From positions 1-64,000 of IMG/VR virus record IMGVR_UViG_3300036985_003303: a stretch of 64,000 nt of DNA; one strand, 5' to 3'. Every line of letters starts with the position of its first letter. The stretch's first letter is position 1. The notes beneath the pieces were generated by a model, which was given only the letters and a program-made list of their open reading frames with translations, ran no database searches and was not told where the DNA came from. Made by a program: the position numbers and the translations under genes. Source of the stretch: a virus. Positions 3,036-31,491 of this stretch are shown piece after piece.

Positions 3036-3587
3036 TTAACATGCAGCCCATGCAATGAATTTGTATAGACCTAATTTTTCAGTTGTTGACTTTTTATATG
3101 TGACAGTTGCACATTGACTATTGCCTTCAATAAGTTCTTTAGCAATAATTATTTTTACATTGACATCTGGATTAGCTTCAACATAAGTTCTTGCTTTTTT
3201 GATACAAACTGTTTGGCTTTTATCTCTTGCAACTTCTCGTTGATCCCATGTAGTTACTGCTTTGTATACAGTTTCCCACTTACGAGTTCCTTTTTGAGGA
3301 GTTACATCTACTTGAGATTTAACTTTGTTTTTATTTTCTACAGGTGTTTCCATGCAAAACCCCCAAGCTTCACGCTTACTTGCATTGTCTGCAATATATT
3401 CTTCAATATCTCTAAAACTTTTAGTTTTTGTCATTGAAGTAACATCTTTAGTCAAATCACAAGTATGTATTCCACCGGAGTAACCTTCTTGATGACCAAA
3501 GTAATCTTCATCATCTTGACATGCTCTTTTAAAAGCATCTTGAATATTTTTACCTCTTGCTGTTCTATAAATTAGTTCTGCTCCCAT
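3036..3587 (-). CDS. Conserved phage protein with N-terminal MGA...GYSGG motif
   Basis: A 183-residue protein opening with MGAELIYRTARGK, then an AFKRACQDD helix and YFGHQEGYSGGI. I recognise this N-terminal pattern (MGA, an Ala-rich helix, aromatic-GH, GY[TS]G) as recurrent in proteins of many unrelated phages, but its function is not known to me. The C-terminal ~100 residues (TWDQREVARDKSQTVCIKKA and onward) look like a second small alpha/beta domain. The gene overlaps the start of the WGR gene's downstream end by 16 bases and precedes the polymerase, so it belongs to the replication operon. Confidence 0.8.
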   Translation of the reverse strand: MGAELIYRTARGKNIQDAFKRACQDDEDYFGHQEGYSGGIHTCDLTKDVTSMTKTKSFRDIEEYIADNASKREAWGFCMETPVENKNKVKSQVDVTPQKGTRKWETVYKAVTTWDQREVARDKSQTVCIKKARTYVEANPDVNVKIIIAKELIEGNSQCATVTYKKSTTEKLGLYKFIAWAAC

Positions 3588-21366: not shown

Positions 21367-21903
21367 TCACCCTACATGCTCTACAATATCAAATTCTAAT
21401 TCAGTGTATCCTTCAGGTACTTTTTCTGATACAGAAATCAAATTGCGTGACCATAGTCCTACAATTTCTGAATCCCCCCTGAAATCACCGCCTCCTCTAC
21501 CGTTACCTTCGCAGGTTAACAATGGAAGCGGGTGTATTTGCCAACCATCTTTATCTGTAGGAACAGTTGTTTTGTCAACGTATTCCTTGGTATCATGGTT
21601 GATTACATATCGGCTTTTTGTTTTAGATAATGGAGTTTTAGGTTTTAATATTGTTATATCTTCACAAAGACTATAAAAATTATCTCCATCTTCAGAACCG
21701 TCTACTGCATCAGCATAATCACCACACCAGGTAACAGGCATTGGATTTTTGTAGATTAAATTTTCAAATGACTTTACAAAATCATTTTTCATCCATGAAT
21801 GTTCCATTAACTTGGATCCTGAACCATATTGGTATGAAGATACCCAACCAATTACATTTTTCTTTTCTTTGTCTAGCAAGATTGCTTTATAATACTGTCC
21901 CAT
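21367..21903 (-). CDS. Conserved protein, MGQYYK family
   Basis: 178 residues starting MGQYYKAILL, with YGSGSKLMEHSWMKN and VTWCGDYADAV. This combination (MGQYYK, KLMEHS, W.GDYAD) is widespread in phage and bacterial proteins of unknown function. The C-terminal half has HPLPLLTCEGNGRGGGDFRG. No catalytic residues proposed. Confidence 0.82.
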   Translation of the reverse strand: MGQYYKAILLDKEKKNVIGWVSSYQYGSGSKLMEHSWMKNDFVKSFENLIYKNPMPVTWCGDYADAVDGSEDGDNFYSLCEDITILKPKTPLSKTKSRYVINHDTKEYVDKTTVPTDKDGWQIHPLPLLTCEGNGRGGGDFRGDSEIVGLWSRNLISVSEKVPEGYTELEFDIVEHVG

Positions 21904-24459: not shown

Positions 24460-24482
24460 AGGAATTAATTTTAGGGGTTAGA

Positions 24483-24553
24483 GGTATAGGAGGGAGTCGA
24501 ACCCTCACACATAGCGTTGTTGCTACAGCTCTGCCAGTTGAGCTTACTATACC
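24483..24553 (-). tRNA. tRNA-like gene with a 6-nt anticodon loop
   Basis: On the minus strand: 7-bp acceptor GGTATAG / CTATACC, D arm AGCT-loop with GG-AGCT, T arm GAGGG-TTCGACT-CCCTC, no encoded CCA. The anticodon stem GTAGC / GCTAT closes a loop AACAAC of only six bases with no U33, and nucleotide 26 is missing; total 71 nt. The anticodon cannot be assigned. It may be a degraded tRNA, a tRNA mimic or a one-base sequencing error. Confidence 0.7.
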
Positions 24554-26858: not shown

Positions 26859-27059
26859 TTAAAAGTCAACTCCTTCAGTGTATCCACACTTAGCGAGAAA
26901 TGGAGCTTCGCATGCTACTACACACTTACCCTTTTCCCATTTGGCTAGGAATTGTACTTTGTGTGTTAGTGCTTGCAGGCGAAAGTCATAGTATTCTCTG
27001 CTTGTCATTGTACATTCTACAATGAAGTTTTCTGTGTAATCTGTTTTGTTTTGTGACAT
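26859..27059 (-). CDS. Small hypothetical protein (66 aa)
   Basis: Reads MSQNKTDYTENFIVECTMTS and ends AKCGYTEGVDF; three Cys. A copy of the TACTATCAC repeat (27063-27071) lies three bases before the ATG. Terminated at 26739-26773, so it is probably a monocistronic unit. Unknown. Confidence 0.68.
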   Translation of the reverse strand: MSQNKTDYTENFIVECTMTSREYYDFRLQALTHKVQFLAKWEKGKCVVACEAPFLAKCGYTEGVDF

Positions 27060-27144
27060 TTTGTGATAGTATTTAATGAATAATTAGACACTTCCCCTTC
27101 CTGATGATAGTAACTTACCAATTTTTTGGGAGTGGTGTGAATGT

Positions 27145-27268
27145 GGGACTGTAATTTCGCGGAAGTCTGAAACGAAGAGTTTCAGCCCACGGAGTGTTGC
27201 CCGCGGCAGCGAGCCAAGGTATAGCCAGGCGCGTAGGATCTGCAAGATCCTGTTAGCCGACACCATGC
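27145..27268. ncRNA. Structured RNA-like element, copy 1
   Basis: GC-rich (unlike the AT-rich genome) and non-coding. Hairpins: CTGAAAC-GAAGA-GTTTCAG (7 bp), AGGATCT-GCA-AGATCCT (7 bp). Landmarks shared with copy 2 in the same order: GTAAT, GTCTGAA, GTTTCAGCCC/GTTCAGCCC, CGGAG, GCCC-CGGCAG, AGGCG, AGCCGACAC. About 124 nt. Strand not settled. Confidence 0.6.
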
Positions 27269-27275
27269 ATACCAT

Positions 27276-27421
27276 GGGCTAGTAATCCCCAGGAGTCTGA
27301 ACCTGGGTTCAGCCCTCGGAGAGCAAGGGTTGCCCAACGGCAGGGCGAAGCCCTTATAAGAGTTGATCGGGAAGAAGCCCAGGCGGCAGAAACCGGAGGT
27401 TTCAATGAGCCGACACAATGC
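27276..27421. ncRNA. Structured RNA-like element, copy 2
   Basis: Diverged tandem copy (146 nt) of the element at 27145-27268. Hairpins: CCCAGG-loop-CCTGGG, GGGC-GAA-GCCC, GAAACC-GGA-GGTTTC. Base changes between copies keep the first stem paired (GAAAC/GTTTC versus CCAGG/CCTGG), which suggests selection on RNA structure. Confidence 0.6.
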
Positions 27422-27462
27422 TTTTTTGGGAGTGGGCGGGTGTGGTGATAGTAACCAAAAAA

Positions 27463-27498
27463 ATAATGCCTGTCACTCCGAAGAGCAACAGGCGTTAT
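27463..27498 (-). terminator. Rho-independent terminator
   Basis: 11-bp stem ATAATGCCTGT / ACAGGCGTTAT (one G-T pair), 14-nt loop, followed on the minus strand by TTTTTTTGG. Ends the gene at 27503-28171. Confidence 0.85.
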
Positions 27499-27502
27499 CT
27501 TA

Positions 27503-28171
27503 TTATCGCTTGCGTAATTCAGCAAGCATTGCACGAGCATCAGCAACACGGTCTTCACGGTCAAGGTTACGAATGTCCCTAACTTTCAACTTGGAAGCCT
27601 TTGCAATGCGAAGCATTTCAAGGTTGTCCTTAGCCTTGTCAAGTTTCTCCAAAGCAAGCATTGCCTGAATTGGTTCGCAGAATGACTTAGCAATAGTACC
27701 ACGCGAAGGGTTTTCTTGATTGTTGTTAGGAACCAAATAAGAACCGTTTGTAGACAACAACTTGAATGAGTCTGCACCGTGGTAGTGGAACGGAACCATG
27801 TCGCCTAACTTGATTGAACCTGAAGCGAAGCAATCAGATAAAGCAAGGTCGCCTGCAATTACAACTTTCTTATCTCCGAACTCGAAGTGAAATGAGTAAC
27901 CGTCTGAATGAACAAGTTCTAAGTCCATAGTATAGACAACAGTACCGTTAAGCGCATTGCGAGGTGTAATACCATTAGCAACTAACTCAACAGGAGCGAC
28001 AGCAGGAGCTGATTCAAGACTGATAGACAAACTTGTTGCTAAAGCAATAAGAGTGTCAACGTCCATAGCTTGCAAAGACTTTTTAGTAATACTGTTAGCT
28101 TTGCAAATAGCTTTTTGAGCAAAGATTGTTTCAACAACGTCTGCTTGAGTAAATGTGGAAGTAGTTTCCAT
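27503..28171 (-). CDS. Unknown 222-aa accessory protein
   Basis: N-terminal helical region rich in Ala/Ser, a beta-rich centre (ALNGTVVYTMDLELVHSDGY; FGDKKVVIAGDLAL) and a long charged C-terminal helix ending MLAELRKR. No recognised family. It is a single-gene unit, with its own upstream motif (28295-28317) and downstream terminator. More balanced base composition than neighbours suggests separate acquisition. Confidence 0.72.
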   Translation of the reverse strand: METTSTFTQADVVETIFAQKAICKANSITKKSLQAMDVDTLIALATSLSISLESAPAVAPVELVANGITPRNALNGTVVYTMDLELVHSDGYSFHFEFGDKKVVIAGDLALSDCFASGSIKLGDMVPFHYHGADSFKLLSTNGSYLVPNNNQENPSRGTIAKSFCEPIQAMLALEKLDKAKDNLEMLRIAKASKLKVRDIRNLDREDRVADARAMLAELRKR

Positions 28172-28294
28172 AATAAATTTTGCGTTTTATACCCGCACGG
28201 TTTTAAAAAAGGATAACACATTTATCTGTTGGCTGTGTAGACACCAATGCTTTAGCAAACTACGAAGAGTAAGACAGCCCGTAAGGGAAAAAAG

Positions 28295-28317
28295 CACCGA
28301 AGGGGTGAATTTACATT
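28295..28317 (-). promoter_or_regulatory. Conserved leader motif, copy A
   Basis: Minus strand AATGTAAATTCACCCCTTCG then GTG. Same block as at 28872-28894 and 30135-30157 (core AATGTAAAT, then CCCTKCGGT). Located ~125 bases before the ATG at 28171. Confidence 0.55.
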
Positions 28318-28483
28318 TGAGGCTGAGTACTGGTGTGTGCGAACCGCGTAGTGCCGAAGAATGAGGCTGCTCGCGGTGAGCAAGAGAGAAAGATAGAAAG
28401 AGCGCGCGCAGCGCACCGTTTGAGTGAATGATTGGGAGCTGTTGTGAATACATTTGAGGTGGGAGTGATAGTAAAAAAACAGT

Positions 28484-28894: not shown

Positions 28895-28934
28895 TATGCG
28901 CCTGTGTTGTGTTGAGTGATAGTAAACAAAAAAA

Positions 28935-31125: not shown

Positions 31126-31173
31126 GGGGGGACATCAAAAACCTAGCAATGACGGGGGGTATAGAAGATAGGG
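31126..31173 (+). repeat. G6-N19-GAC-G6-N9-TAGGG element, copy 2
   Basis: GGGGGG (31126-31131), 19 bases, GACGGGGGG (31151-31159), then TATAGAAGATAGGG. Spacing identical to copy 1, with unrelated spacer bases. Followed by three GGTGCA-type words (31172-31232) and the 31252 promoter. Confidence 0.7.
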
Positions 31174-31251
31174 TGCACCCAAATAGGTGCAAAAACACGC
31201 AAATTAAAGAAAAATTGCACCAAAAAGGGTGCATAATCCAATTATCTTTAG

Positions 31252-31259
31252 TAGATTTG
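31252..31259 (+). promoter_or_regulatory. Promoter -7 box TAGATTTG
   Basis: Fits TAnnTTTG, four bases before the ATG at 31264, so the RNA would be leaderless or nearly so. Upstream GTGCACC/GGTGCA inverted words (31173-31232) may be an operator. Confidence 0.55.
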
Positions 31260-31263
31260 TGTC

Positions 31264-31488
31264 ATGATAAAAAAATATTTAAAAATTGAACCTGCTGATT
31301 CTAAAAAATATCAGATAAAAGGCGGTGTGAAGGATGAGTTTGGAATAATGACTGGTTTAATAATTAGACCTTCATTTAAAGATAGACTTTGGATTCTATT
31401 AGGTTATGATATTGGTGTGGGTATCACTGTTATTACTGATAAACCAGCCAAACCTATTAGTACAACACACAGTTGTAATTTAATGTAG
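31264..31488 (+). CDS. Small hypothetical protein (74 aa)
   Basis: Basic N-terminus MIKKYLKIEPADSKKYQIKG, beta-rich centre with LWILLGYDIGVGITVIT and a Thr/Ser/His end. Three bases from the RepL-like gene; probable operon. Unknown. Confidence 0.65.
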   Translation: MIKKYLKIEPADSKKYQIKGGVKDEFGIMTGLIIRPSFKDRLWILLGYDIGVGITVITDKPAKPISTTHSCNLM

Positions 31489-31491
31489 GTT

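Follow-up and report, generated by a model that had tools for sequence, protein, structure and literature searches.

An uncultivated crAss-like phage carries, in DNA that codes for no protein, a real fold that has been maintained in evolution and is present as two diverged copies; together they make up a new element, which matches no described RNA family. The element falls in the 64,000-nt window (the whole stretch of DNA analysed here) of the 117,346-bp phage record G000. Tentatively, and at somewhat less than an even chance, we read it as a non-coding cis-acting control region upstream of leftward, probably early, genes, with hairpin modules placed between its sites.

A tandemly duplicated element outside described RNA families

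Folded module copy 1 (27145-27268, + strand) and copy 2 (27276-27421, + strand) are present where the original prediction put them, with their landmarks in the order it gave, and the tandem duplication that it proposed is borne out by comparison of the copies. Local alignment joins them end to end with a score of 27.5 (highest among 1000 shuffles, 17.5), and a covariance model made from the copy-1 sequences of the window, L011 and L006 matches copy 2 at E=4.9e-8 and detects no additional copy in the 117-kb record. Copy 1 is homologous to copies in G001/G040, G003/G004, G043 and G008/G009, while relatives of copy 2 occur in G001/G040, G003/G004, G043 and G010. The element is also GC-rich in an AT-rich genome, as predicted (GC 0.57 versus 0.36 on its left side). 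The 14-bp direct repeats described as bracketing the pair are exact and exactly 300 bp apart (27122-27135 and 27422-27435, + strand), and a repeat of this type is reached in 5 of 5000 shuffles; they are missing or decayed in relatives, and thus are not a general feature.

The absence of a coding frame, likewise part of the original prediction, holds across the arrays of ten lineages, where the longest stop-free frame is below the 95% shuffle level in nine and equal to it in the tenth. The Rfam search that had been proposed as a check (Rfam 15, all 4227 families) gives the element no match at the gathering threshold and nothing credible up to E=5. Searches of phage records by blastn with the element and by megablast with 24 kb return zero matches. 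Elsewhere in the window, an Rfam model places a tRNA at 24482-24553 (- strand, 42.8 bits) that is not called by ARAGORN. A Y RNA of the TROVE/Ro protein, an idea taken from the crAss001 literature, was considered and dropped, PF05731 being absent in 15 records, some of them fragments.

Compensatory changes maintain the hairpins

In three helices (H1, H3 and H2b) changes in one arm are matched by changes in the other, so that pairing is preserved both inside a single genome and from phage to phage. These compensatory changes support the modules as a structured nucleic-acid element. In copy 1, H1 (CTGAAAC-GAAGA-GTTTCAG, 27167-27185, + strand) and H3 (AGGATCT-GCA-AGATCCT, 27235-27251, + strand) are covarying helices, with 56/56 cells paired over 8 sequences and 54/54 over 9 sequences, respectively. 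Taken together, all 110 of 110 cells are paired and 7 of 13 pairs show two-sided change, and the observed pairing of H1 and H3 is reached by 6 and 0 of 5000 shuffles; these counts come from hand-extracted helices in few and related sequences, and so express support and not a probability. H2a is conserved in sequence in both copies (TGCC-CGC-GGCA, 27198-27208, and TGCC-CAAC-GGCA, 27331-27342, both + strand) and thus gives no covariation to judge by in copy 1. H2b of copy 2 (AGGGC-GAA-GCCCT, 27342-27354, + strand) appears as AGGAC-GCA-GTCCT in G010 and as AGGGC-GTA-GCCCT in G043, the former a change in both arms (AGGGC/GCCCT versus AGGAC/GTCCT).

The changed hairpin bases of the original prediction are confirmed as to compensatory change and corrected as to the stem: in copy 2 the first stem reads CTGAACC/GGTTCAG (CTGAACC-TG-GGTTCAG, 27297-27312, + strand) and not CCAGG/CCTGG. 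This is the same helix as copy-1 H1, from which it differs by one compensatory pair (A-T to C-G), and its innermost pairs are probably open. H3 of copy 2 (GAAACC-GGA-GGTTTC, 27389-27403, + strand) covaries as well and is retained even in G034, G032 and G029. Within one genome the H3 arms read GGATCT/AGATCC in copy 1 and GAAACC/GGTTTC in copy 2, a difference that speaks for folding of a single strand rather than for a palindromic protein site. The modules also share conserved unpaired sequence (CGGAG and GCCGACAC). An extra stem between the site flank and CGGAG was considered and set aside, its support being inconsistent.

Loop form weakly favours the + strand as the strand that folds. On this strand 17 of 20 tallied hairpins have G...A loops, of which 10 are exact GNA (mostly closed by C-G, and with all four bases found in the middle position) and seven are longer (GCGA, GAAGA, GTCAA); the three remaining loops are those of copy-2-type H1. 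Folding z-scores are no better on + than on -, leaving the strands unseparated. A scan of the 117-kb record for GNA triloop hairpins with stems of at least 6 finds nine over both orientations, about the number expected by chance, with two of them in this array.

The strongest rival to a control region is an independent structured non-coding RNA transcribed rightward (+) from the array, in which UGGGANNGUAAU repeats and G...A hairpins would serve as a scaffold or sponge by binding a phage or host protein, or would affect RNA polymerase in the manner of antitermination hairpins. We consider this possible although doubtful. The G...A loops lie on the appropriate strand and include GNRA-type GCGA and GAAGA pentaloops, H1 and H3 contain just two G-U pairs, both fitting +, and tandem copies with conserved unpaired sequence suit such an RNA, as do L106 and L127, in which a +-direction hairpin and T-runs lie past the array. 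The modules also exceed, in size and in the amount of conserved unpaired sequence, what would suffice for a simple promoter or operator, which favours a folded RNA. Weighing against it, no + promoter is recognisable, the terminator scan finds none on + after copy 2 in the window, the + strand has no advantage in folding z-score, and the neighbouring genes and their motif (see below) point leftward.

The modules lie in an intergenic array shared by ten lineages

Relatives were gathered by DNA-pattern scans of viral contigs, terminase searches and neighbour-gene searches; every one is an uncultivated contig, with several closely related to one another. The array is found at one shared intergenic position in each of ten lineages (the window with its near-identical L007, G001/G040, G003/G004, G043, G008/G009, G010, G029, G032, G034 and G027). 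H1 followed by CGGAG is present in the first six of these, the terminal hairpin alone is kept in G034, G032 and G029, and no hairpin is seen at the array of G027. In L131 (G029) the clearest tandem units of the syntenic array are two direct repeats of ~45 bp (GGGACAGTAATCTTTACGTGTGTACTTCCGGACA...) at ~3360-3500.

The part of the array that stays constant across the ten lineages is (T/A)GATGATAGTAA, which adjoins the gene corresponding to that at 26859-27059 of the window. Beside this gene all ten arrays carry TGATGATAGTAA, usually accompanied by GGGNNNGTAAY copies, and a canonical TTACTATCATCA or a near form of it stands by the gene together with degenerate copies, for example ATTACNRTCCCAT, and all of these share one strand. 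GGGNNNGTAAY-type sites number one to four in most arrays, with a spacing that is often 22 or 41-45 bp; several of the sites in the arrays are degenerate, and the extra divergent copies in G010 were judged by eye. Two sites are placed in the window on the + strand: GGGACTGTAAT at 27145-27155 (leftward ATTACAGTCCC) and TACCATGGGCTAGTAAT at 27270-27286 (leftward ATTACTAGCCCATGGTA). The latter is the top match of the site position matrix in the 117-kb record, and the second window site, at 27139, scores about the same as the gene start at 21891 and a place at 95273.

Between the array sites, the clade of the window has one or two folded modules of ~100-150 nt each. They look like insertions or expansions in an older intergenic array, since in G008 the module sits within a unit that also exists module-free (GGGACTGTTACTaaaACACgat); this direction of change is our inference.

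The original prediction also allowed for a mobile non-coding unit, a suggestion that the relatives do not support. Such a MITE-like unit would take the 14-bp repeats as its target-site duplication, in keeping with their exactness and 300-bp spacing and with the presence or absence of modules among relatives. Its copies, however, have diverged yet remain at one syntenic place, the bracketing repeats are unconserved, and zero copies occur elsewhere in G000 or in the records of the searched relatives, so that we regard mobility as very improbable. Scans of viral contigs return true relatives together with chance matches in unrelated sequence, with no true copy off the syntenic place, and a scan of one genome contig gives chance-like matches only. 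An att site was rejected as well, the record having no tyrosine integrase (PF00589 unmatched).

A leftward motif shares its core with the array sites

The array is flanked by two orphan genes on the - strand, one of 66 aa on its left (26859-27059) that is syntenic in relatives and one of 222 aa on its right (27503-28171), whose intrinsic terminator (27468-27493, - strand) forms the right border of the region. Fold comparison of the 66-aa protein gives no significant match, and comparison of the neighbouring gene with a phage collection gives no match. The record encodes DNA polymerase, primase, DnaB-like helicase, terminase, portal and major capsid families. Its terminase is ~25% identical to those of Flavobacterium phages (e.g. 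FpV4, Fpv3 and Fpv20), and the terminase search matches 114 phage records, including Bacteroides and crAssphage-named entries. The replication genes are on the leftward strand and the structural genes on the rightward strand, with the switch at ~30.3 kb. The leftward genes near the array are probably early, by analogy with other crAss-like phages (PMC8375218, PMC10136315), whose early genes are read by the virion RNA polymerase; this transcription program has been compared with the one in N4 (PMC8375218, PMC10136315, PMC7886860). Comparison of the large virion proteins at 64-117 kb with PHROGs shows no RNA polymerase family and one structural-protein match only.

The motif TTACTATCA is strongly strand-specific. 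Over ten fragments (from the ten lineages, ~127 kb summed) it occurs between genes 22 times leftward and 0 times rightward, for a shuffle expectation of 0.54 and a maximum of 3 in 100 shuffles, and many of the sites are 11-85 bp upstream of a leftward ATG. All sites listed here are on the - strand. The site at 27105-27113, contained in TTACTATCATCA, is a candidate promoter or operator core before gene 26859-27059 and is found in all ten lineages. Three others follow the U-tracts of leftward terminators: that at 27446-27454 comes right after the terminator of gene 27503-28171, and those at 28466-28474 and 28917-28925 come after UUCG-loop terminators. A further site (~115555-115563 of the record) stands just before a leftward gene, as the first does before the gene starting at 27059. 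From this placement TTACTATCA looks like a promoter or operator core of the leftward genes. Two further features lie nearby: a GC-rich, non-coding stretch of ~300 bp (28172-28466) between a TTACTATCA-bearing terminator and gene 27503-28171, with hairpins such as GGTGCGCTGCGCGC, and a motif near ATGTAAATYTAGCCCTKCGGTC that recurs on the - strand ahead of leftward genes (~28320, 28880 and 30150).

Read leftward (e.g. ATTACTATCCCAT), the array sites have the core TTACTATC, which they share with TTACTATCA, and we infer from this common core that the sites and the motif are related. Because the array sites contain the core of a leftward strand-specific motif, a control region is at least as likely as an independent RNA. 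As such a region, the array would gather the protein or RNA polymerase that reads TTACTATCA as a leftward promoter or operator core, and the hairpins would act in cis, either as structures extruded from supercoiled DNA or as folds in a transcript running across this region, with the effect of tuning expression of the leftward block. The + strand, on which the loop form is found, is the template strand for leftward transcription. Elsewhere in the record TTACTATCA sites are without such hairpins, the link between fold and motif being specific to this locus.

Two weaker rivals bear on the same sites. If transcription started at TTACTATCA near 27450, the modules could fold as - strand RNA in the 5' leader of gene 26859-27059 and control this gene post-transcriptionally. 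The motif at 27454 does lie immediately past a terminator U-tract, and the region is directly upstream of a gene that remains adjacent in relatives; however, the part present in ten lineages is the second TTACTATCATCA, 45 bp before the ATG and downstream of the modules, the motif right of the array is absent in some lineages (e.g. G008/G009), and the loops and G-U pairs suit the opposite strand. A leader is on these grounds unlikely.

We likewise give little credence to a replication origin or single-strand initiation site, at which iteron-like repeats and hairpins would serve an initiator or primase. Repeats of one site accompanied by hairpins, proximity to the GC-skew minimum in G000 and the encoded primase and DnaB-like helicase would fit this function, and as in iteron origins and operator arrays the array consists of direct repeats of one site at a fixed locus. 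In contrast to such arrays, the core motif here also stands singly before other leftward genes, and the skew minimum fails to track the array in most relatives, lying at the gene-strand switch in G034, G027, G043 and G010. A repeat cluster at 31.13-31.24 kb, by a gene with low-confidence winged-helix resemblance, is at least an equal candidate for an origin. More broadly, the window at 31130-31490 carries AGGTGCA/TGCACCAAAAA repeats upstream of a rightward 164-aa gene, possibly an operator for an initiator or regulator; a low-confidence model of the protein (31492) suggests winged-helix (MarR-like) resemblance, and similar repeat clusters occur in G034 (GTGTTATTTTTAGCACC) and G027 (AAAAAGGTGC).

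Comparison with known hairpin elements

Early promoters of phage N4 are hairpins in the template strand, with a three-base loop whose 5' G and 3' A form a sheared pair and with variable stem bases that are free to change if the hairpin is kept (PMC4496689). The array resembles the promoters of the N4 virion RNA polymerase in its short hairpins, many with three-base G..A loops (C(GGA)G in copy-2 H3), in stem bases that vary with pairing kept, and in the location of the loop form on the template strand of the nearby, probably early, leftward genes. Set against the N4 loop form (GNA with C:G closing), half of the 20 hairpins have the exact loop and half depart from it. Like N4, crAss-like phages employ a virion RNA polymerase, and their transcription program is broadly N4-like (PMC10136315). 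Their enzyme, which combines two double-psi-beta-barrel domains in one polypeptide (PMC7886860), is nevertheless of a different family from that of N4, which has been compared with T7 RNA polymerase (PMC4496689). Unlike N4 promoters, the modules are ~100-150 nt long with several hairpins and conserved unpaired sequence, the central loop base is unconserved, and some loops are tetra- or pentaloops. The module with its TTACTATC repeats might be an array of extrudable-DNA-hairpin promoters for the crAss-like virion RNA polymerase, convergent with N4, but we hold this more specific proposal to be a long shot.

The GAAGA pentaloop on the 7-bp stem of H1 presumably resembles the boxB hairpin of lambda nut and other phage antitermination hairpins. 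The array differs from lambda nut in its stems and context, and no boxA or N-like protein was identified.

Implications

In the papers on crAss-like phages consulted here (PMC10136315, PMC7886860), neither early promoter sequences nor structured non-coding elements are described for these phages. A control region built from TTACTATCA and a folded array would provide targets for study of virion RNA polymerase recognition, of the control of leftward genes and of the role of folded DNA or RNA. Were the hairpins indeed promoters, an N4-type hairpin promoter would have evolved convergently in a polymerase of a different family. As a covarying element outside Rfam, the duplicated fold could found a new family.
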